Of a stretch of 64,000 bases of DNA, positions 6,953 through 17,917 are shown piece after piece; position 1 is the first letter of the stretch; each line of letters begins with the position of its first letter. The stretch is from Polaromonas sp. (lineage in GTDB: Bacteria > Pseudomonadota > Gammaproteobacteria > Burkholderiales > Burkholderiaceae_C), in NCBI RefSeq assembly GCF_010365105.1, contig NZ_JAAFGZ010000002.1, forward strand, positions 62,001 to 126,000, read 5' to 3'. The position numbers and the translations under genes are program-made. The notes under the pieces were generated by a model, which saw only the letters and a program-made list of their open reading frames with translations, made no database searches and was not told the origin of the DNA.

Positions 6953-7660
6953 TCAGGTTCCCGCGTAACGGAATAGCTGGTCGCCGCCCGGTGAGCGAAT
7001 TTGTGCATTGAACGAGACGATGATGCGGTCCCGCTCCCCGACATACGGCATGGCCTTGTGCGGCATGAACGACGGGAACAGCACCAGTTCCCCCTCGGCT
7101 GGCGTCACATCCAGTGTGGCCTGTTGCAGCCAGGCGTTGCCCATGTCCATGTACGCTCCACCGAGCAAGGGGAACAGCGGGCTGTAAAAACGCGTAGCGC
7201 CGTTCAGTAGGCCGAACTCGGGGTGGGTGTGGCGCTGCTCGGGTGGATCGATCTGCACGTAATACACCCCGGACCAGGAACAATTGCCATGGGTGTGAAT
7301 GTCGTGAAAAGTGGCGCCATTCTGGATCTGAAACCAGACCCCCACCAAATCCAGTTGCAGGCCGTGACGACCCTTTGGCCAGACACCGGCGTTTGCCTGT
7401 TGGGCCGTGGCTTGCAACGAGGCGGCAATGAACTGCAGCAAGGCACTGAACTCGGGGAGGTCCACGCGTTTCAGTAAATCATCGGCACTGGCATAAAAGC
7501 TGCCCGGCGCCGCCATGACGTCGGTCGCGCGCAGCGCGTTGAACACCCGGCCCAACACGGGATTGACCTCGGACGCTTCTTTAAAACGGTGCACCGCCAG
7601 CGGCACTGGCCAGTGTTGCTGCAGAACGCCCGCAGCAGGCACCGGCATCATCGTCGTCAC
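6953..7660 (-). CDS. Putative 2-oxoglutarate/Fe(II)-dependent oxygenase (TIGR02466-like), last gene of the cox operon
   Basis: A 235-residue protein resembling the TIGR02466 group of the cupin-like 2OG-Fe(II) oxygenase fold. Likely metal ligands are the His residues in FHDIHTHGNCSWSGVYY and in the distal PHKAMPYVGERDRIIVSFN block, whose Arg would bind 2-oxoglutarate. Its GTG start overlaps the stop of the mocA-like gene (GTGA), so translation is coupled and it belongs to the cox transcript. No role for such a protein in CO dehydrogenase biogenesis is known to me. A modification enzyme for a Cox protein or a cofactor-related role are both guesses. Confidence 0.75.
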   Translation of the reverse strand: MTTMMPVPAAGVLQQHWPVPLAVHRFKEASEVNPVLGRVFNALRATDVMAAPGSFYASADDLLKRVDLPEFSALLQFIAASLQATAQQANAGVWPKGRHGLQLDLVGVWFQIQNGATFHDIHTHGNCSWSGVYYVQIDPPEQRHTHPEFGLLNGATRFYSPLFPLLGGAYMDMGNAWLQQATLDVTPAEGELVLFPSFMPHKAMPYVGERDRIIVSFNAQIRSPGGDQLFRYAGT

Positions 7661-8376
7661 GCGATCGTCTCGGTGGCGGGCAGTTCCAGCTTCCAGCCGG
7701 TACGCTGCGCCAGTTGCTGCACATCCTCCAGCGTGTCGAGATCGGTGACAAAGCGAAGGTTGGCGGTCTCGTGCACATGCACCAGTTCCGGCTGGCGCTC
7801 GATCAGGTGACGACAGCCCAAATGGGTGTCACTGGCCAGAATTTGCGCGCGGGCTACCTCGTCAAGCAGGATCGGGTTGCCGCGCTGGCCATTGACCACC
7901 GGCACCACCACGTTGCCGCTGGGCCGCTTCTTGAAGGCAGCGATCAGTTCGGTCAGGTCCCCGGTCCCGATCAGGGGCTGGTCGGCCAGCACGACAAATA
8001 CCGCGTCAAAGTTGCCATGGAGGGCTGCCAGGCCGATGCGCACCGAACCTTGCTGGCCCGCACGGTAGGCCGGGTTGTAGGCCAGTGTGATGGGAAAACT
8101 CTGCACCTGGGCTTCAACCGCTTCACGCGCATGCCCGGTGACCACCACCACTTCATCGACTCCTGCGCCGCTGAGCGCAATCAGTTGGCGGCTGATCAGG
8201 GGCACACCCTGCAGGCGGATCAGCGACTTGGTCACGCCGCCCATGCGCGCACCTTCGCCGGCCGCCAATACGACCGCCCCAATTCGCAGGCGGGGGTAGA
8301 GTCCACCACCCTGTTTAAGCAAGCATCCCATAGTCGAATTTCCAGAAGTTGTAGGTGTGTTTGAAATCATGTTCAC
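7657..8376 (-). CDS. MocA/MobA-like molybdenum cofactor nucleotidyltransferase
   Basis: A 239-residue NTP-transferase. The nucleotide-binding motif AVVLAAGEGARMGG near residue 34 and the FVVLADQPLIGTGDL block are typical of the MobA/MocA superfamily. In cox and xanthine dehydrogenase clusters such enzymes convert Mo-molybdopterin to the cytosine dinucleotide form (MCD) used by CO dehydrogenase. The GTG start overlaps the coxE stop as GTGA, and its own stop overlaps the next gene in the same way, so three genes are translationally chained. MCD synthesis is inferred from context. Confidence 0.85.
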   Translation of the reverse strand: MNMISNTPTTSGNSTMGCLLKQGGGLYPRLRIGAVVLAAGEGARMGGVTKSLIRLQGVPLISRQLIALSGAGVDEVVVVTGHAREAVEAQVQSFPITLAYNPAYRAGQQGSVRIGLAALHGNFDAVFVVLADQPLIGTGDLTELIAAFKKRPSGNVVVPVVNGQRGNPILLDEVARAQILASDTHLGCRHLIERQPELVHVHETANLRFVTDLDTLEDVQQLAQRTGWKLELPATETIA

Positions 8377-9533
8377 ATCAGCAGCTCTGGCAGCCTGGAC
8401 AGGCTGGCCAGATTGTGCGCAGGCATGAAACGGGTGACATGTTGCGCCGCCAGGGCCATCGCCGCCGACTGGGGTACCTCTACTGTGGGGTGCAGCCAGC
8501 AGACGCGGGCACCGCGCGCCCGGACCTGCGCCAGCACCTCGGCCAAGGCTTCAGGCTCGTCGGTGTCGTAGCCGTCACTGAACACCATGAACAGGTCGCC
8601 TCGTGACAAGGAGCGTGCCAGATGCTGGTGCAGCGCCTCGTGCAGGCAACTGGCAATGCGGGTGCCGCCGCCAAAGCCGAAGGTGACCGCATTGACCTTT
8701 TCCTGCACCCGTTCGCTGCGCCGCTTCAGCAGCGGAGTGACTTCGGCCAGCCGGGTGTGGAACACAAAAGCCCGCGCATCCATGACCTCGACCAGGGCCC
8801 GGCTCAGGCGCAGAAAAAATTGCGCATGCACTTCCATCGACCGACTCACGTCCACCAGCACCACCACGCGTGGCTGCCGCCGTTTGCGGCGCACATGGTG
8901 CAGTTTGACCAGTTCGCCGCCAGTGGCCAGCGCCGCCCGCAGGGAACGTCGCACGTGAATGACGCCACTGGTGCGGTGGCTTTGCAGCCGGCGCAGCAAC
9001 TGTTGGCGCAGCCGGCGCTTGAGGGCTTCCACCAGTGGCTCGAAGCGGTCCATGTCACCGGGCATCCAGTCGGCAAAATCGCGCTGATCCAGCGGTGCCG
9101 TTCGGGCCGCACCGCCCTGTGCGTGCGGCGGGGCATCGCTGGCTTCGGCATCACCCGAGCCCTCTTGCTCGGCCATGCCTTCAGTCGGCTTGACCTGACC
9201 GGGTGGTGTGTTGCCCTGCTCGCCGTGCATCTGCTGCACCAACTCGGGCAGCGTGCGCCCGCGCCGTGTCAGCCCCGAGCTACGGGTCGAGGCCCTGACC
9301 TTGTGCGGAAACCAGAACGCCTGGTGCAGTTCCGGGTATTTAAGCCACTGCTTGTGGCTGCCCGAGGCGATGCTGCGCCACAGCGCCTCGACCCGCCCCC
9401 ACTGCGACAGTGGCAGGGCAGCGGCAGCGCGCACCATCAGCTCAAGCTCGGCGTAGCCCAGTGCAAAACCGTGGTCGCGCAAGTAGTGGGCGAACTCGCC
9501 CAGACGTTCGCGCGGATCGGTGGCCTTCATCAT
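8373..9533 (-). CDS. coxE: CoxE-like VWA-domain maturation protein
   Basis: A 386-residue protein with a von Willebrand A domain. The MIDAS-type metal site is visible as VVLVDVSRSME (DxSxS), followed by the FGGGTRIASCL Thr site and VFSDGYDTDEPE. CoxE acts with the AAA+ ATPase CoxD in assembling the copper-sulfur-molybdenum active site of CO dehydrogenase. It follows coxD by 10 nt and overlaps the mocA-like gene. A charged, low-complexity linker precedes the VWA domain. Confidence 0.9.
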   Translation of the reverse strand: MMKATDPRERLGEFAHYLRDHGFALGYAELELMVRAAAALPLSQWGRVEALWRSIASGSHKQWLKYPELHQAFWFPHKVRASTRSSGLTRRGRTLPELVQQMHGEQGNTPPGQVKPTEGMAEQEGSGDAEASDAPPHAQGGAARTAPLDQRDFADWMPGDMDRFEPLVEALKRRLRQQLLRRLQSHRTSGVIHVRRSLRAALATGGELVKLHHVRRKRRQPRVVVLVDVSRSMEVHAQFFLRLSRALVEVMDARAFVFHTRLAEVTPLLKRRSERVQEKVNAVTFGFGGGTRIASCLHEALHQHLARSLSRGDLFMVFSDGYDTDEPEALAEVLAQVRARGARVCWLHPTVEVPQSAAMALAAQHVTRFMPAHNLASLSRLPELLM

Positions 9534-9543
9534 CCATAACCCT

Positions 9544-10479
9544 TCACTTCATGGCACCGGCCACGCCCACATCCTGCGCAATGCGCGGGCCGTCAACCAG
9601 CTTGCCCACACGCTCCGCCGTCACCTGCCAGCGGTCGTTGCGAGTCTTGAGCAGCGCCGCCAGCGTCGGCACCAGCACCATGTGGTCAACCGGGAGCTCG
9701 CCGTGGCCCAAGTGAAACAGCACGCGCACCCAGTCCAGGGTTTCTGCAATGCCCGGCACCTTGTCCAGGTCTTCCCGGCGCAAGCGCTGCACGAACGCCA
9801 CCGCTTCCTCGACGAGCCGGCTAGCGGCCTCGGGCACCAGCGTACGAACAATCTGCGTTTCGCGCGCCAGTGATGGGTAATCCAGGTAATGAAACAGACA
9901 ACGCCGACGCAGCGCATCCGACAGGTCGCGAGTGCCATTGCTGGTCAGAATCACCAGCGGTTTGCTCAAGGCCTTGAGCGTGCCGATCTCTGGGATGCTC
10001 ACCTGGTGTTCCGACAGCACCTCCAGCAGGAATGCTTCAAAGGCCTCATCCGCGCGGTCGATTTCATCGATCAGCAAGACACAGGGCGTTGGCGAACGAA
10101 TCGCCTGGAGCAGGGGGCGCTGCAGCAAGAAGTCTTCGGAAAAAAGGTTGTCGCGCAGCGCAGCCCGGTCGGCCTGCCCGGCTTCTGCAAGGCGAATCTC
10201 CAGCAGCTGGCGGCTGTAGTTCCACTCATAGACGGCCTGGCTCAGGTCCAGCCCTTCGTAGCACTGCAAGCGCAGCAGCGGGCGACCCAGCGCCCGCGCA
10301 CAGGCGCCGGCCACGGCCGTCTTGCCGACGCCGGCTGCGCCCTCCAGCAACAGGGGCCGCTCCAGCGTCAGCCCCATCCAGATCAGGCTGGCCAGGTCCT
10401 CGTCAGCAATGTAGCCAGCCTTGAACAGGCGCTCTCGCAAGCCGTTCGGCGTGGGCGGCGTATCAGCGGTTGGCGACAT
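9544..10479 (-). CDS. coxD: CoxD-like MoxR-type AAA+ ATPase
   Basis: A 311-residue AAA+ protein. Walker A is GAAGVGKTAVA, Walker B is CVLLIDEIDRADEAFEAF, and sensor 1 is VILTSNGTRDLSDALRRR, where the family expects N-x-T-R. CoxD is a membrane-associated chaperone needed to insert sulfur and copper into the MoCD site. I take the ATG at 10479, 14 nt past the coxG stop; the track start at 10545 would overlap coxG by about 50 nt and adds an unrelated leader. Confidence 0.92.
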   Translation of the reverse strand: MSPTADTPPTPNGLRERLFKAGYIADEDLASLIWMGLTLERPLLLEGAAGVGKTAVAGACARALGRPLLRLQCYEGLDLSQAVYEWNYSRQLLEIRLAEAGQADRAALRDNLFSEDFLLQRPLLQAIRSPTPCVLLIDEIDRADEAFEAFLLEVLSEHQVSIPEIGTLKALSKPLVILTSNGTRDLSDALRRRCLFHYLDYPSLARETQIVRTLVPEAASRLVEEAVAFVQRLRREDLDKVPGIAETLDWVRVLFHLGHGELPVDHMVLVPTLAALLKTRNDRWQVTAERVGKLVDGPRIAQDVGVAGAMK

Positions 10480-10493
10480 GGTGCGAAGCCAGC

Positions 10494-11108
10494 TCAGGCT
10501 TTGCGGCCGAACAGGTCCGCAAAGAACTTCTTGATCATGACCCACACAAAGGCCAGCGCGTTGAATTCCTTGGCCACGACCGGAGCCGCCGGTGCCGCCA
10601 CCGGCGCGGCATCTTCTGCACCCGCTGCGGCAGGAGCGACTGGGGCAGGCCCTTGCAGCGCTTGCGCTTTTTGCGAAAAGACCTCGGCAAACTGCAACAG
10701 AATCATGTCGGACACGGAGGTCATCATGCGTCCGCCAAACTGGGCAAACTTGCCATTGACAATCACCTCGGCATGGCCCTCCAGCGTGCTGTGGCCATTC
10801 TCGGCGGGTACCAGGACGGCGGTCAGCGCCATCGATGCAGAAGACCCGCTCTTGTCGGCCCCTTTTCCCAGCATCTTCAGGGTGCGTGTCACCGGGTCCA
10901 GCGTCAAAATTTCAATGGTGCCGGCAAAGGCGGCCACTGCAGGCCCGACCTTGACCCGGACACTGCCCTTGTAGTGGGTGGCATCCACGTCTTCGGTGAT
11001 CTGTGCGCCCGGCATGCAGGTCGCGAGTTCATGCATGTTGGACAGCACGGCCCAGCTGGACTCCAGGCCAGCGGCCACGGGGTATTTTTTATCGAGAACG
11101 ACTTCCAT
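10494..11108 (-). CDS. coxG: CoxG, CO dehydrogenase subunit G (START-like fold)
   Basis: A 204-residue SRPBCC/START-like protein. The N-terminal block ends with ELATCMPGAQITEDVD and continues YKGSVRVKVGPAVAAFAGTIEI, both typical of CoxG. An Ala/Pro-rich linker (about residues 145-180) leads to an amphipathic tail (FVWVMIKKFFADLFGRKA) that likely binds the membrane. CoxG links CO dehydrogenase to the membrane and its quinone pool. AAGGAA precedes the ATG; it lies 15 nt after coxL. Confidence 0.92.
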   Translation of the reverse strand: MEVVLDKKYPVAAGLESSWAVLSNMHELATCMPGAQITEDVDATHYKGSVRVKVGPAVAAFAGTIEILTLDPVTRTLKMLGKGADKSGSSASMALTAVLVPAENGHSTLEGHAEVIVNGKFAQFGGRMMTSVSDMILLQFAEVFSQKAQALQGPAPVAPAAAGAEDAAPVAAPAAPVVAKEFNALAFVWVMIKKFFADLFGRKA

Positions 11109-11123
11109 GAATTCCTTTGCGGG

Positions 11124-13526
11124 TCAGCTGGCAAGGCCAACGGCTTTGAGTTGTTGCCAGACGCGGTAAGAGGTGTGCGGCATGTTGAAGTGGGTCACAC
11201 CCAGGTGTGCAAATGCATCCACCATGGCGCTGGTAAACGTCGGGATGCTGCCCACGTGGGGCGATTCGGCGACACCCTTGGCACCCAGCGGGTGGTGCGG
11301 TGACGGGGTGACGGTGTAGTCGGTTTCCCATTTGGGTGTTTCAACCGCAGTAGGCAGGAAGTAGTCCATCAGCGTGTTGCCCTGGATATTGCCTTGCTTG
11401 TCAAATGACAGCAATTGCCCCATTGCAACGGCAAAACCTTCCGTCAAGCCACCATGAATCTGGCCTTCGATGATCATCGGGTTGATGCGGGTTCCGCAGT
11501 CATCAAGCGCATAAAAGCGGCGAATCTTGGTTTCACCCGTGCCCTTGTCGATGTCCACCACGCACAGGTAAGCGCCAAACGGGAACGTGAAATTGGGCGG
11601 GTCGTAGTAATGCACGGCCTCCAGTCCCGGTTCCAGTCCCTCGGGCGGCTGGTTGTAGGCGGCCCAGGCGATGTCCTTCATGGTTTTGAATTTGTCGTCG
11701 TTGCCGCGCAGCTTGAAACGGTCAATTTCCCATTCAAGATCGGCTTCGCTCACCTCCAGCAGGTGGGCCGCAATTTTCTTGGCTTTCGCGTGAATCTTGC
11801 GCGCTGCCATGGCAATGGCTGCACCCGCTACCGGTGTCGAGCGGGACCCGTAGGTGCCCAAACCATAAGGGGCCGTGTGGGTGTCGCCCTCTTCGACCTG
11901 GATCACTTCGGAGGAAATGCCCAACTCGGTGGCAATGATCTGCGCATAGGTGGTCTGGTGACCTTGGCCCTGCGAGATGGTGCCCATGCGCGCGATGGCG
12001 CTGCCGGTTGGGTGCACGCGAATCTCGCACGAGTCGAACATGCCGACCCCCAGAATGTCGCAAATCTTGCTGGGGCCGGCACCCACCACCTCGGTGAAGG
12101 TGACCAGGCCAATGCCCATCAAGGTGGGGCAGTCCGGGTCCGCGCGCTTGATCGCCTGCTCGGCGCGCAAACCCTTGTAGTCCACGGCGTTCAGCACCTT
12201 GTCCATGGCGGTCTGGTAGTCCCCGGAGTCGTACTCAAAGCCGAACGCCGAGGTGTAGGGGAATTGTTCACGCTTGATGAAGTTCTTGGACCGGATCTCG
12301 GCCTTGTCCATGCCCAGCTTTTGCGCCAGCACGTCGACCATGCGCTCCACCAGATAAACCGCCTCGGTGACGCGGAAGGAGCAGCGGTAAGACACGCCAC
12401 CCGGCGCCTTGTTGGTGTAGACCCCATCGACCCGGCAGTAGGCGCTGGGAATGTCATAGCTGCCGGACACGATATGGAACATGCCGGCGGGGAACTTGGT
12501 CGGGTCGGCACAGGCGTCAAAAGCGCCGTGGTCGGCGATCACATTGGTGCGCAGCGCCAGAATCTTGCCGTCGGCGGTGGCGGCCAGCTCCCCGGTCATG
12601 TGGTAGTCCCGGGCAAACGCCGTGCTGGAGAGGTTCTCGATCCGGTCCTCAATCCACTTGACCGGTTTGCCCAGCACGATGCTGGCGACGATGGCGCACA
12701 CATAGCCGGGGTAGATGCCCACTTTGTTGCCAAAACCGCCGCCAATATCGGGCGAAATGATGCGAACCTTGGACTCCGGAATACCCGACAGCATCGACAC
12801 CACGGTACGCACCACGTGCGGCGCCTGGCTGGTGATGTAGGTGGTGAGTTCACCGCGAATCGGATCGAACGAGGCCACGCAGCCGCAGGTCTCCAGCGGG
12901 CACGGGTGCACGCGCGGGTAATGCATGTCCTGCTTGACCGTGATGGGTGCGCTGGCAAAGGCAGCGTCGGTCGCTTCCTTGTCGCCGGCATCCCAGGTAA
13001 AGATATGGTTGTGGTGGTAGCGCTTGCCATGCGCGCCTTCGGTTTTGCCCACCAGGTCTTCCCGGATCACCGGGGCATCGGGTTTCAGGGCCTCGAACGG
13101 GTCAATCACCACCGGCAGTTCTTCGTACTCAACTTCTACCGCCTCCACGCCATCGGCGGCGGCGTAGCGGTCAGTGGCGATCACCACGGCCACTTCCTGC
13201 ATTTGAAAGTGAACTTTACCGTCTGCCAGCACGGCTGCCACGTCACCGGCCAGTGTGGGCATCCAGTGCAGTTTGAGGGGTTTGAGGTCTTCCGCAGTCA
13301 GCACGGCAATGACGCCGGGGACCTTCAGCGCCTCTTCCTTGTTGATGCGAAGAATGCGGGCGTGGGCCACCGGCGAGCGCACGATGTCCATGTGCAGCAT
13401 CTCGGGTAGCTTGATGTCATCCACATAGTTGCCCTTGCCCTGGATGAAGCGCGCATCCTCCTTGCGCAGGCGGGACTCGCCCATGCCCATCAGGGCCTTT
13501 TCACGATCACTCATTGGTGCGTTCAT
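11124..13526 (-). CDS. coxL: Aerobic CO dehydrogenase large (molybdenum-copper) subunit, form I
   Basis: An 800-residue catalytic subunit that oxidises CO with water to CO2. The active-site loop reads GGVSYRCSFR, with the Cu-ligating cysteine at about residue 382; this is the form I pattern AYXCSFR with Ala replaced by Ser, and not the form II AYRGAGR. IGGGFGNK (about 261) and GAKGVAES, with the catalytic Glu near 754, bind and serve the molybdopterin cytosine dinucleotide. AAGGAG precedes the ATG. It partners with coxM and coxS directly upstream. Confidence 0.96.
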   Translation of the reverse strand: MNAPMSDREKALMGMGESRLRKEDARFIQGKGNYVDDIKLPEMLHMDIVRSPVAHARILRINKEEALKVPGVIAVLTAEDLKPLKLHWMPTLAGDVAAVLADGKVHFQMQEVAVVIATDRYAAADGVEAVEVEYEELPVVIDPFEALKPDAPVIREDLVGKTEGAHGKRYHHNHIFTWDAGDKEATDAAFASAPITVKQDMHYPRVHPCPLETCGCVASFDPIRGELTTYITSQAPHVVRTVVSMLSGIPESKVRIISPDIGGGFGNKVGIYPGYVCAIVASIVLGKPVKWIEDRIENLSSTAFARDYHMTGELAATADGKILALRTNVIADHGAFDACADPTKFPAGMFHIVSGSYDIPSAYCRVDGVYTNKAPGGVSYRCSFRVTEAVYLVERMVDVLAQKLGMDKAEIRSKNFIKREQFPYTSAFGFEYDSGDYQTAMDKVLNAVDYKGLRAEQAIKRADPDCPTLMGIGLVTFTEVVGAGPSKICDILGVGMFDSCEIRVHPTGSAIARMGTISQGQGHQTTYAQIIATELGISSEVIQVEEGDTHTAPYGLGTYGSRSTPVAGAAIAMAARKIHAKAKKIAAHLLEVSEADLEWEIDRFKLRGNDDKFKTMKDIAWAAYNQPPEGLEPGLEAVHYYDPPNFTFPFGAYLCVVDIDKGTGETKIRRFYALDDCGTRINPMIIEGQIHGGLTEGFAVAMGQLLSFDKQGNIQGNTLMDYFLPTAVETPKWETDYTVTPSPHHPLGAKGVAESPHVGSIPTFTSAMVDAFAHLGVTHFNMPHTSYRVWQQLKAVGLAS

Positions 13527-13551: not shown

Positions 13552-14040
13552 TTAAGCGGCGACGGTATTTTTCTGCAAGGTGTTGGCTGCGTGCAGCACG
13601 GCCTTGACGATGTTCTGGTAACCGGTGCAGCGGCACAGATTGCCCGCCATTCCGATGCGCACTTCTTCTTCCGTGGGCGTCGGGTTGTCTTGCAGAAAAC
13701 GGTAGGCGCGCATCAGCATGCCGGGCGTACAGAAGCCGCACTGCAAACCGTGTTCCTTGTAGAAGCCCTCCTGCACCGCATGCAGCACGCCGGCATGGGC
13801 CAGGCCTTCGACGGTCTTGACGTCGCTGCCATCGCACTGGACGGCCAGGTGGGTGCAGGACTTGACCGATTGCCCGTCAATATCCACCGTGCAAGCGCCG
13901 CAGTGGCTGGTCTCGCAGCCGATGTGGGCGCCGGTCAGATTCATCTTTTCGCGCAGAAAGTGCACCAGCAGGGTACGCGGCTCGACCGCCTCTTCCACCT
14001 GGCGGCCGTTGAGGGTCATTGAAACCAGTGTCTTGCTCAT
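13552..14040 (-). CDS. coxS: CO dehydrogenase small [2Fe-2S] subunit
   Basis: A 162-residue protein carrying two [2Fe-2S] clusters. The plant-ferredoxin-type cluster uses C42, C47, C50 and C62 ([10 protein letters not shown]). The second uses C101, C104, C136 and C138 (CGFCTPGM and [10 protein letters not shown]). It passes electrons from the Mo-Cu site to FAD in CoxM. AAGGAG precedes the ATG. Gene order coxM-coxS-coxL matches known form I clusters. Confidence 0.96.
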
Positions 14041-14070: not shown

Positions 14071-14934
14071 TCAGGCGCAGCGGCTGGCCGCCGTGCGGAT
14101 CGCCCGTTTGACCATCTCGGAGGCCATGGCGGTCTTGTACTCAATGTCGCCGCGCAGGTCTTCGGCGGGGTCGCACACGTCGCGCACCGCTTGCGCCGCA
14201 GCCGCCAGCGTGGTGTCATTCACGGGTTGGCCCATCAGTGCTGACTCTGCCGCGCTAGCCCGCAGCGCGGTCGGTGCCACATTGGTCAGGCCGATGCTGA
14301 TGTGCGTCACCACGCCCCCGTCCATGCGCAGCATTACCGCCGCACCGGCAGTGGCCCAGTCGCCGGTCTTGCGTTTGAGTTTTTGGTAGGCATAACCGGT
14401 GCCCGGATGAAACGGCGCCACCAGAATGGCCGTGAGGATTTCGTTCTCGGCGAGCGCGGTCATGTAGGTGCCATGGAAGAAGTCCACCGCCAGCACCTGG
14501 CGTTCGCCGGAGGGGCCTTGCAAGACAAATGTGGCATCCAGCGCCATCGCGATGGCCGGATGGTCGTTGCCCGGATCGCCGTGCGCAATATCGCCGCCAA
14601 TGGTGCCGCGGTTGCGCACCTGTGGGTCGGCAATCAGCAGCGCCGCTTCGGGCAGCAAAGGCAGCCGTTCCTGCAGCAACTTCGAGGTGATCAGTTCGCT
14701 CTCGGTGGTCATCGCGCCGATGCGGATCAGGCCGCCTTCTTCGCGGATGCCGCGCAGTTCGGGAATCCGGTTGATGTCGATCAGCGTGCCGGGCTGCGCA
14801 AAGCGCAGTTTCATCATCGGCAGCAGGCTGTGTCCGCCAGCCAGCAGCTTGGCGTCGTCGCCCAGTTCGGTCAGCAGTGAAAGTGCCTCGCCAATGGAGC
14901 GGGGCGCGTGGTACGCAAATGAAGGTGGAATCAC
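14071..14934 (-). CDS. coxM: CO dehydrogenase medium (FAD) subunit
   Basis: A 287-residue flavoprotein. The two FAD motifs are LLAGGHSLLPMMKLR (about 31-45) and TIGGDIAHGDPGND (about 106-119), both diagnostic of CoxM. It takes electrons from CoxS and delivers them to the respiratory chain. It begins with GTG, 8 nt after AGGAG. The 171-nt gap to the rcoM stop should hold the operon promoter. Confidence 0.95.
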   Translation of the reverse strand: MIPPSFAYHAPRSIGEALSLLTELGDDAKLLAGGHSLLPMMKLRFAQPGTLIDINRIPELRGIREEGGLIRIGAMTTESELITSKLLQERLPLLPEAALLIADPQVRNRGTIGGDIAHGDPGNDHPAIAMALDATFVLQGPSGERQVLAVDFFHGTYMTALAENEILTAILVAPFHPGTGYAYQKLKRKTGDWATAGAAVMLRMDGGVVTHISIGLTNVAPTALRASAAESALMGQPVNDTTLAAAAQAVRDVCDPAEDLRGDIEYKTAMASEMVKRAIRTAASRCA

Positions 14935-15105
14935 TTTGTCTCCTGTACGGCCTGATTGACCTTTAGGAGTGTGACTCTAGTGCCGGCCGATTCGGATGGG
15001 GAAGCTAAACAACCAACCGTCGCTCAGGCTGCACGAATGGCAGCCGCACTGCACGGAGGATCAGAAAAAGCATGTTCACTCATCAGCCAGCGTCAGCCCG
15101 ATCCG
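14935..15105 (-). promoter_or_regulatory. Probable cox operon promoter region
   Basis: This is the only sizeable gap upstream of coxM and lies between rcoM and the operon. It carries the AGGAG ribosome site for coxM and a locally AT-rich stretch (TTGGTTGTTTAGCTTCC on the minus strand). I could not place a convincing -35/-10 pair or a clear RcoM operator. Confidence 0.5.
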
Positions 15106-15918
15106 TCAGCTTTTGGCGTAGGCGGAGGCCGTGTCCGTCAGCCCGAGCTGCTCCATCAGCAGGGGCGCGCTAGCTCGCGACACTGGAATCTCGACCGGGA
15201 TGGATCCGATCATGTGCAGCGTCATGCGACCGTCGCTGCGCACAATTTCATCAATATGGGACAGGTTGACGATGTAGCTGCGGTGCACCCGCATGAACAG
15301 GTGCGGATCGAGCCGGCTCTCCAGATCCCCAATATTGAGGTTGCAGAACTGACTGCCCTGCGCGGTATGGACCCAGGTGTAGTGCCCCTCGGAGCGGATG
15401 TACGAGACGCTTGGCACATCTACCAGCAACACCCGGTTTTGCTTGATGGTGGGTATCTTGCGCAGTTGCCGCTTGTCGCCGCCCTCACGCGTGCCGGGCG
15501 AACCGGGCGCAGTGCCGGCTTTCGCCTCCTGGCTGACGACCTCGGTAATGTCATAGAAAACCAGGGTGTAGCCTTTGGTCGCGCCCTGTACATCGCCGAT
15601 TTTGGACACCTTGATCAGCAGCATCCGATCCGGAATGTTGATCATCATGGCCATGGGCGGGGCATTGTTCACCGGGCACTCGGCCTGTCCCAGCAGGAAT
15701 CTGACTTTGTGCTGCGCCGACTCGGGATGGAACGACGTCACGATCTTGCCAAAGGGCATCTTGTCCTGCACGGGCAGGCAGCGCCGCGCATAGTCGTTCA
15801 TCCCCATCACGCGCAATTCCAGGTCGAGATTTACCACACCGACGTCAAATCGCTCCAGCAAATAGAGCCATGAACTCGAAGGTGGTGCAGAAAGGGAATC
15901 CATGGGGCAGGTTTTCAT
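15106..15918 (-). CDS. rcoM: RcoM-type CO-sensing heme PAS-LytTR transcriptional regulator
   Basis: A 270-residue one-component regulator. The N-terminal PAS domain keeps all residues known from Burkholderia xenovorans RcoM: a proximal His (His64 in SFHPESAQHKVRFLL), a Cys (Cys81 in AECPV) and a distal Met (Met91 in MAMMINIPDR), corresponding to His74, Cys94 and Met104 there. The C-terminal LytTR domain (residues about 165-262) has FMRVHRSYIVNLSHIDEIVR. RcoM activates cox transcription when CO displaces Met from ferrous heme. The start at 15918 gives the usual family length; 15903 and 16014 are alternatives. It is oriented with the cox operon and divergent from the CoxI-like operon. Confidence 0.93.
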   Translation of the reverse strand: MKTCPMDSLSAPPSSSWLYLLERFDVGVVNLDLELRVMGMNDYARRCLPVQDKMPFGKIVTSFHPESAQHKVRFLLGQAECPVNNAPPMAMMINIPDRMLLIKVSKIGDVQGATKGYTLVFYDITEVVSQEAKAGTAPGSPGTREGGDKRQLRKIPTIKQNRVLLVDVPSVSYIRSEGHYTWVHTAQGSQFCNLNIGDLESRLDPHLFMRVHRSYIVNLSHIDEIVRSDGRMTLHMIGSIPVEIPVSRASAPLLMEQLGLTDTASAYAKS

Positions 15919-16199
15919 CTGATTTGCTAAGTAGTAAGGTTGCAGGCAAATTGTGAGAAGGCAGTTTCGTGCCGGAAAACGGACGCTCATGCAGGTCAGA
16001 CGCGTTTCGTTCATGGGCCCGGCGGTCGCGTGAAACGGCAGTTAGAGTCACTTTCCTGAGCGGCCTTGTTCATGAAAATGACATTCTTCCCAACCTTTGC
16101 AGATTTGACTGAATATTTTGAGGTGACAAGGTCCAGGTTGGCATGGGGTTTCCCCTAGCGCATCATTTTTCATTTGTTGTTGTGAACCGAACGATTGCC
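15919..16199. promoter_or_regulatory. Divergent regulatory region between rcoM and the membrane protein/coxI operon
   Basis: About 280 nt separate two divergent gene starts. It is AT-richer than its surroundings, especially at 16075-16190. Both promoters must lie here. I could not define operators with confidence. Confidence 0.5.
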
Positions 16200-16892
16200 A
16201 TGAACTCACCTTCCCACTGGCTGGCCCGCAGCATCGGCTCCGCCGTCCTGACCCCTTTCGTGCTGGTTGTGCTGGTCGGCGCGACGCTGTGGCTGGCCGG
16301 GCAGACCAGTGCCATTGACGCCGGCAGTCACCCGTCTGCCGTCACCTTCCTCGCGCTCGCCGCCGTCGCTGCGGGCTGCGCCGCTCTGGCTTGGATACGT
16401 CCGCAACGCGCTGGTCTGTCTCCACCGCACGTCATGCTCTCGCTGGGGTTTGGCGGCATGTTGCTGGGCCTGCTCTACGACTATTACAACGCGGGCCCCG
16501 CCCGGCTGGACAGCCTGTGCACCCAGTCCGCGTCGCTGGATTTCGTGGAAAGCATGCAGCTGCACCTTGAGTTTTTGCCCGGCATGCATGCCGGCATGCT
16601 GGCTGGCGGGCTGCTGGCGATCCCCAGCCTGCGGTTGATGCGGGCCGATTGCGGGCGCTACCTGTGCTCGCTCTTCGCCCAGAACCTGATGTGCTCCAGC
16701 TGGATGCTGATCGGCATGACCGTTGGCGCCTTGTGGCTGTCGCGCTGGCAGGTGGCGGCGGGCATCAGCACTTTGCCAGGGATGTTGGGCGGTATGTTCG
16801 TCGGCATGACTTGGGGCATGGTGGTGAGCGTGGCGCTGTACCGTGGTTTCTTTGTCGTGCGCAACCGCGTCCAGATTAAAAAGGTGGCCTGA
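16200..16892 (+). CDS. Integral membrane protein of the CO locus, family unknown
   Basis: About 230 residues with roughly five hydrophobic segments (for example FVLVVLVGATLWLAG, VTFLALAAVAAGCAALAW and MLSLGFGGMLLGLLYDYY). No catalytic or metal motif stands out. An ATG at 16143 is an alternative start with 19 more residues. Its stop overlaps the ATG of the XdhC-like gene (TGATG), so the two are coupled. CoxK and CoxC/CoxH membrane proteins occur in other cox clusters, but I cannot assign it to any of them. Confidence 0.7.
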   Translation: MNSPSHWLARSIGSAVLTPFVLVVLVGATLWLAGQTSAIDAGSHPSAVTFLALAAVAAGCAALAWIRPQRAGLSPPHVMLSLGFGGMLLGLLYDYYNAGPARLDSLCTQSASLDFVESMQLHLEFLPGMHAGMLAGGLLAIPSLRLMRADCGRYLCSLFAQNLMCSSWMLIGMTVGALWLSRWQVAAGISTLPGMLGGMFVGMTWGMVVSVALYRGFFVVRNRVQIKKVA

Positions 16893-17917
16893 TGGAAAGT
16901 CTTGATCTCAGAGTTTTGGGTGACGCGCTGGCCTGGCGAACGGCCGGTCATGCCGTCACGCTCGTCACCGTGGTGCAAACCTGGGGCAGCGCACCGCGAC
17001 CACCGGGCGCCTTGCTGGCGGTGCGGGATGACGGGGTGGTAAGCGGTTCAGTGTCGGGCGGCTGTGTTGAAGACGACCTGATTGCCCGGACCAAGACCAG
17101 TTTAGCCCCCGGGGGCGTGAGCACACCGGCCTTGGCGAAGCCCGCCCTGATCGCCTACGGTGTGACCAAGGAAGAAGCAACCCGTTTCGGTTTGCCGTGT
17201 GGCGGCACCTTGCGGCTGGTGCAGGAACCCCTGCTCGACACGGCCTGGATCACGGAGCTGCTGGCGCGCACGGCCGCGCACGAGTTGGTGGCGCGCAACC
17301 TGACGCTGGCCACCGGCGCCGTTGTGCTCGCAGACGCGGTGCGCGGCCAACCACTGCAGTTCGATGGCACGACGCTGACCACGGTGTTTGGCCCCCAATG
17401 GCGCCTGCTGCTGATTGGCGCTGGTCAGCTGTCGCAGGCGGTGGCGCAAATAGCCCTGATGCTTGACTTCGAGGTGCTCGTGTGCGACCCGCGTGAAGAA
17501 TATGCCGCCATGCTGGTCGCAGGTGTCAAAGGTATCCGGCGCGTGGAGGGCATGCCTGACGATGTGGTGCGCGAACTGCTACCGGATGCGCACACCGCCA
17601 TCGTCGCCCTCACGCACGACCCCAAACTCGACGACATGGCCCTGCTTGAAGCCCTCAAATCAAGCGCTTTCTATGTGGGCGCGCTGGGTTCGCGGCGCAA
17701 TCAGGAGGTCCGCAAGCAGCGACTGGCCGAGCACTTTGACTTGAGCGCGGAAGAGTTGTCGCGCCTGCATGGCCCGGTTGGCTTGGCGCTCGGTGCCAAG
17801 ACGCCGGCCGAGATCGCCGTCTCCATCGTGGCCGAGATCGTGCAGGTCAAAAATGCCGTGGTGGTTGCAGCGGCAGCGCTCACCACCGCAGGCGGCGGCA
17901 GCCTCGCCCTATTTTGA
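16892..17917 (+). CDS. XdhC/CoxI-family maturation factor for the molybdenum enzyme
   Basis: A 341-residue protein of the XdhC/CoxI/CoxF family. The N-terminal block VQTWGSAPRPPGA followed by GSVSGGCVEDDL is the family hallmark; the C-terminal Rossmann domain has LLIGAGQLSQAVAQIA. A late conserved segment reads GLALGAKTPAEIAVSI. Such proteins bind molybdenum cofactor, help its sulfuration and hand it to the apoenzyme. Its start overlaps the stop of the preceding membrane protein gene. In numbered cox clusters it would be CoxI or CoxF; I leave the symbol open. Confidence 0.88.
   Translation: MESLDLRVLGDALAWRTAGHAVTLVTVVQTWGSAPRPPGALLAVRDDGVVSGSVSGGCVEDDLIARTKTSLAPGGVSTPALAKPALIAYGVTKEEATRFGLPCGGTLRLVQEPLLDTAWITELLARTAAHELVARNLTLATGAVVLADAVRGQPLQFDGTTLTTVFGPQWRLLLIGAGQLSQAVAQIALMLDFEVLVCDPREEYAAMLVAGVKGIRRVEGMPDDVVRELLPDAHTAIVALTHDPKLDDMALLEALKSSAFYVGALGSRRNQEVRKQRLAEHFDLSAEELSRLHGPVGLALGAKTPAEIAVSIVAEIVQVKNAVVVAAAALTTAGGGSLALF

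Follow-up and report, generated by a model that had tools for sequence, protein, structure and literature searches.

Does the RcoM-type protein encoded at this locus work as an ordinary CO sensor, or has its redox switch been changed by a His–Cys segment three residues shorter than that of the Burkholderia xenovorans protein? The preliminary description raised the second possibility. In the following, the window is the whole stretch of Polaromonas DNA analysed here (64,000 nucleotides). Background on RcoM was taken from PMC11347149, PMC9670170 and PMC11160397. In our opinion the protein is likely to be an ordinary and intact RcoM, i.e. a heme PAS CO sensor whose CO form would bind two operator triplets and activate both the coxM operon and a second, divergent operon.

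The rcoM gene and the adjacent cox operon

The open reading frame at 15106–15918 was confirmed. It is on the minus strand, a point left unstated before, and reading the same interval on the plus strand gives nothing of interest. The gene and its domains are:

15106..15918, minus strand: rcoM, putative PAS-LytTR CO-sensor regulator of 270 aa (Pfam LytTR and PAS_10; 71–88% identical relatives at the corresponding position next to cox)
15544..15861, minus strand: PAS domain, predicted heme domain, residues 20–125 (PAS_10, E 1e-4; AlphaFold2 model)
15145..15435, minus strand: LytTR DNA-binding domain, residues 162–258 (PF04397, E 3e-23; fold match 3d6w, AgrA)

The architecture with an N-terminal PAS and a C-terminal LytTR domain is given both by Pfam and by the AlphaFold2 model (mean pLDDT 82), and the fold neighbours of the PAS domain in the PDB include heme-PAS Aer2 (6ceq and 4hi4). 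Note that the loop between the Cys and Met ligands is modelled poorly, with pLDDT under 50 at residues 83–87. A solved structure of an RcoM was found neither by sequence nor by fold search. The gene starts with MKTCP at 15918, which is the conserved start. A longer ORF of 302 aa beginning at 16014 was rejected, its frame being unconserved and interrupted by an in-frame stop within the 96-nt extension in 41 of 57 sequences. The same 96 nt upstream of MKTCP hold a conserved operator-like element. There is no second RcoM-type paralogue in the 4.5-Mb genome.

It had been stated that rcoM lies immediately upstream of a form I coxMSL cluster, and this is correct in both respects. The rcoM stop is separated by 171 bp from the start of coxM, which has the same strand, and coxL scores 1528 bits against a TIGR02416 cut-off of 991. 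The genes of the operon are:

14071..14934, minus strand: coxM, FAD subunit (PF00941, PF03450)
13552..14040, minus strand: coxS, [2Fe-2S] subunit (PF01799, PF00111)
11124..13526, minus strand: coxL, form I Mo-Cu CO dehydrogenase large subunit (TIGR02416)
10494..11108, minus strand: coxG (PF06240)
9544..10545, minus strand: coxD-like AAA ATPase (PF07728; relatives in the same place)
8373..9533, minus strand: coxE (PF05762)
7657..8376, minus strand: mocA-like molybdenum cofactor nucleotidyltransferase (PF12804)

All of them, in the order coxM, coxS, coxL, coxG, coxD, coxE and mocA-like, are read in the direction of rcoM. The true start of the coxD-like gene is probably downstream of the listed GTG. 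The gene of a putative 2OG-Fe(II) oxygenase (6953–7660, minus strand, PF13759) is possibly the last of the operon, as its ORF and the end of the mocA-like gene overlap. The active-site loop of CoxL is SYRCSFR, one conservative change away from the canonical AYRCSFR; the same SYRCSFR is present in loci L053 and L075.

The sample of 301 family genomes contains 29 with form I coxL and 26 with RcoM. Every one of the 26 is among the 29, so that the link between RcoM and cox is not due to chance. Since three other genomes of the window's genus are without both RcoM and form I coxL, the enzyme and the regulator appear to come and go together. A scan of plasmids for RcoM gave three distant matches only. 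The form I cox operon is very probably under the control of the window RcoM, as indicated by conserved synteny, by the joint occurrence with coxL and by the operator-like element that precedes coxM (see below).

The partners of RcoM are not always the same. In six Ramlibacter-type and two Curvibacter-type loci (L008, L011, L016, L018, L020, L031, L038 and L039) RcoM is 71–80% identical to that of the window and CoxL only about 70%. More specifically, the CoxL proteins of these eight loci form a separate clade (support 100/100) and have the loop AYRCSLR in place of AYRCSFR. This re-pairing of regulator and enzyme came about either by replacement of the operon under a resident RcoM or by recruitment of RcoM.

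Heme ligands and the length of the His–Cys segment

In RcoM, His74 is the proximal heme ligand and Cys94 is the ligand of the ferric state. Met104 is cited as the CO-replaceable ligand in PMC9670170, and Cys ligation with a redox-mediated ligand switch is ascribed to RcoM-2 by a title cited in PMC4703632. The corresponding codons in the window are:

15727..15729, minus strand: His64, equivalent of RcoM-1 His74 (invariant column)
15676..15678, minus strand: Cys81, equivalent of Cys94 (at least 90% conserved)
15646..15648, minus strand: Met91, equivalent of Met104 (at least 90% conserved; 10 from Cys)

The alignment places His64, Cys81 and Met91 in the columns of His74, Cys94 and Met104 of Paraburkholderia RcoM, so the claim that all three ligand positions are kept holds. 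Reference numbering is that of L067, a Paraburkholderia RcoM with His, Cys and Met exactly at 74, 94 and 104. Among the 35 aligned sequences the His64 column is invariant, and those of Cys81 and Met91 are conserved to at least 90%. The distance from Cys to Met is indeed unchanged, being 10 in both proteins. As for the three-residue deletion reported between His and Cys, the count is right (17 versus 20), but it is no special deletion, as 17–18 is usual in the family. The window protein differs from the B. xenovorans type in one more respect, which was missed earlier: a segment of 8 residues before His is absent.

Spacing was compared in a scan with one genome per species, from which 80 relatives were kept: 55 close ones (L001–L054 and L057, mostly Comamonadaceae, about 69–88% identity), two at 55% identity and the rest at about 40% (Paraburkholderia, Cupriavidus, gammaproteobacterial and other proteins). 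His and Cys are 17 residues apart in 54 of the 55 close relatives, the exception being L053 with 19. Spacing is 17 or 18 in the other Burkholderiales RcoMs and likewise in the gammaproteobacterial ones, and the matching columns span 18 in two RcoM-like proteins linked to coo genes (L127 and L128). A spacing of 20 is found only in a group with Paraburkholderia, Cupriavidus, Sideroxydans and Acidisoma. In the maximum-likelihood tree this group is one clade (support 100/100) with the window RcoM outside it, and it is nested among the short forms with the indel columns in or out when the tree is rooted on the two coo-linked sequences, which as an outgroup sit on long branches. Since the proteins with 20 residues make up a single clade and 17–18 is usual elsewhere, the parsimonious reading is that the longer spacing is derived and that the B. 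xenovorans-type lineage carries an insertion. The spacing counts and the trees rule out the shortened His–Cys loop as a novelty of this protein; judged by these comparisons, the proposed peculiarity is one of the reference protein of the B. xenovorans type and not of the window RcoM. Moreover, dozens of species have retained the short form next to their cox operons, which argues against a broken switch; Cys/Met exchange may nonetheless differ in quantitative terms.

The indel is at the end of helix 66–78 in the AlphaFold2 model, directly ahead of Cys81. It is possible that the indel affects the structure, in which case the reference protein would be the unusual one. If the shorter segment altered the redox switch, Cys81 would not be the ferric ligand that its equivalent is in RcoM-1, and the sensor would differ. 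The position of the indel speaks for this, as the geometry may differ where the helix leads into Cys81, and so does the loss or replacement of Cys in some relatives. On the other hand, a spacing of 17 or 18 is the usual one, and nearly every cox-linked RcoM retains Cys; both points speak for a Cys that is still used in the short form. We therefore consider an altered switch improbable.

Cys is the least conserved of the three ligands among RcoMs. L127 and L128 (loci L127/L130 and L128/L131), which stand beside anaerobic cooF-cooS genes named from their sequences, have kept His and Met, and Cys is absent. Loss of Cys in anaerobes would make sense if Cys serves the ferric state; two cases are too few for a rule, and two additional samples contained no new coo-linked RcoM. 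The cox-linked RcoM of Acidisoma (L075, 5917–6774) has a His exactly at the position of Cys94. In genome G388 an open-frame RcoM-like protein encoded upstream of coxM (L125, identical to L133:7576-8322) has Ala in place of both His and Cys; it would be a ligand-dead or re-purposed sensor.

For an ordinary RcoM, homology predicts the following course of events. The PAS domain would bind heme via His64, the sixth ligand being Cys81 when the heme is ferric and Met91 when it is ferrous. CO would then replace Met91, and DNA binding by the LytTR domain would be switched on.

Predicted operators and the divergent operon

The operator of RcoM-1 consists of three direct repeats TTCNNGCA with spacers of 12–13 bp and is situated upstream of the −35 element for activation (PMC11347149). 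The locus has two triplets of this type. One precedes coxM; the other is on the opposite strand and precedes a divergent operon:

15010..15057, minus strand: predicted coxM operator, TCCGTGC/TTCGTGC/TTGGTTG with steps of 20 and 21 bp (conserved footprint in relatives)
14974..14979, minus strand: TAGAGT, −10-like box of coxM (the third repeat begins 37 bp ahead of it)
15966..16012, plus strand: predicted operator of the divergent operon, TTCGTGC/CTCATGC/TTCGTTC with 20-bp steps (consensus match, conservation)
16043..16048, plus strand: TAGAGT, −10-like box of the divergent operon (the third repeat begins 37 bp ahead of it)
16200..16892, plus strand: uncharacterised membrane protein of about 230 aa (conserved start; 66% mean column identity in 25 loci)
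16892..17917, plus strand: xdhC/coxI-family gene (PF02625, PF13478), its first base overlapping the last of the membrane-protein gene

The triplet at the divergent promoter is clear. It agrees with the published consensus at 15 of 18 positions, a score that is joint best in the 64-kb window (the other joint best is intragenic) and was reached in 1 of 500 dinucleotide shuffles of the surrounding intergenic region. It is also the only exact match to a two-repeat pattern, and in relatives the distance from its third repeat to the −10-like box is 36–38 bp. As a positive control, the same scan found triplets of 18/18 and 17/18 before cox in Paraburkholderia (L079 and L077).

The triplet at coxM is degenerate yet conserved. 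Its score against the strict consensus is 13/18, which 22 of 500 shuffles equalled and which is not significant alone, so the case for this operator rests on conservation. In relatives the arrangement is TTCGTGC, 20 bp, TTCGTGC, 20–21 bp, TTGATTG, 37 bp and a TAGAGT-like box, and the 37-bp distance is identical in all 53 relatives with such a triplet. The first repeat of the window, TCCGTGC, has one substitution compared with the relatives, and the third, TTGGTTG, departs from the RcoM-1 repeat. In the genome the coxM triplet is the sole match to the clade pattern with under 3 mismatches. Concerning a wider regulon, the genome scan gave six further matches with 3 mismatches versus two in a reversed control and so does not point to additional targets; note that its pattern fixes the second step at 21 bp and is hence blind to the divergent operator. 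The predicted coxM operator is inside the fragment 14935–15105 that the preliminary description had suggested for a reporter fusion.

The repeats lie upstream of the predicted −35 region and not over it, which is the arrangement of an activator, and judging from these promoters RcoM probably activates both operons. Could the protein instead be a heme-binding repressor, or a sensor of redox or of another gas, with cox induced by a different signal such as starvation? CoxC, a related LytTR protein, represses cox until CO lifts the repression (PMC11347149), and two rcoM-bearing strains with like clusters regulate CO oxidation differently (PMC11771112). Against this stand the position of the repeats and a sensor domain of the RcoM type, RcoM being a CO-dependent activator. 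We find this explanation very unlikely.

The triplet upstream of rcoM is between the divergent starts, about 50–95 bp upstream of the rcoM start, and it could serve autoregulation of rcoM rather than the divergent operon. Its orientation and the step of 36–38 bp to the TAGAGT-like box point to the divergent operon. Moreover, Ramlibacter loci without the divergent gene lack the second triplet and have kept rcoM and the coxM triplet. We rather doubt that the triplet acts on rcoM in place of the divergent operon, though the two kinds of control could coexist. In L053 the divergent gene is present and no triplet was found close to rcoM.

With both operons under an ordinary RcoM, the CO form would bind the triplet upstream of the coxM −35 region and the equally placed one before the divergent operon. 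Activation of the two operons would make the Mo-Cu CO dehydrogenase and its maturation factors CO-inducible. CO induction of cox is thus a prediction.

The membrane-protein start is best placed at 16200, the listed ORF beginning at 16143. For this protein neither Pfam (E 1) nor a fold search of the PDB (E 0.001) gave a match, despite a confident model (mean pLDDT 84). It contains many invariant Met, His and Cys residues, and from this composition a role with copper may be guessed. It occurs in 5 of the 301 family genomes, all 5 with RcoM, and every genome in which it was found has both RcoM and form I cox. A bolder and rather doubtful proposal is that the RcoM of this clade governs two divergent CO-induced operons, the second providing a membrane protein dedicated to the Mo-Cu CO dehydrogenase, for instance in handling of the active-site copper, and that the residue at the ferric position (Cys, His or none) tracks aerobic versus anaerobic CO oxidation.

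Our results correct the frame of reference, as the RcoM known from biochemical work belongs to the type whose His–Cys segment is unusually long; as far as could be found, the literature holds no study of the common short-spacing RcoM. The two-operator architecture is a useful addition, and the two-promoter regulon is directly testable. The natural series of proteins with spacing from 17 to 20 and with Cys, His or no ligating residue could be used to probe the purpose of the redox ligand switch.

Relation to known CO-responsive regulators

The window protein is like RcoM-1 and RcoM-2 of Paraburkholderia (Burkholderia) xenovorans LB400 in being a single-component PAS-LytTR protein with His, Cys and Met, a Cys–Met spacing of 10, linkage to form I cox and a triplet operator. 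It differs from them in sequence (about 40% identity, measured to close Paraburkholderia relatives). It falls outside the RcoM-1 subtype, having a His–Cys spacing of 17 instead of 20 and lacking the 8-residue segment. In addition, rcoM has the same direction as coxM in the window, whereas in the Paraburkholderia loci it is divergent from coxM. The RcoMs of Rhodoferax, Polaromonas, Curvibacter and other Comamonadaceae (L001–L054), at 71–88% identity and 69–70% for the weakest, have the spacing, the synteny and the two operators in common with the window, and nothing notable differs beyond the first coxM repeat TCCGTGC.

The RcoM-like proteins beside cooF-cooS (L127 and L128) share PAS-LytTR, His and Met with the window protein; unlike it, they are without Cys and adjoin Ni-CODH genes. 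Coo-linked examples in the literature are Geobacter GSU2099 and Rubrivivax gelatinosus CBS (PMC4703632, PMC4257681), the comparison of Cys covering L127 and L128 alone. CoxC of Afipia carboxidovorans OM5 is a CO-responsive LytTR regulator of cox with a three-repeat operator, and its sensor is a membrane MHYT domain that uses copper (PMC11347149). The window protein resembles CoxC in the LytTR domain, the cox target and the three-repeat operator, and differs in its sensor, as Pfam gives no MHYT match and a PAS domain is present instead.
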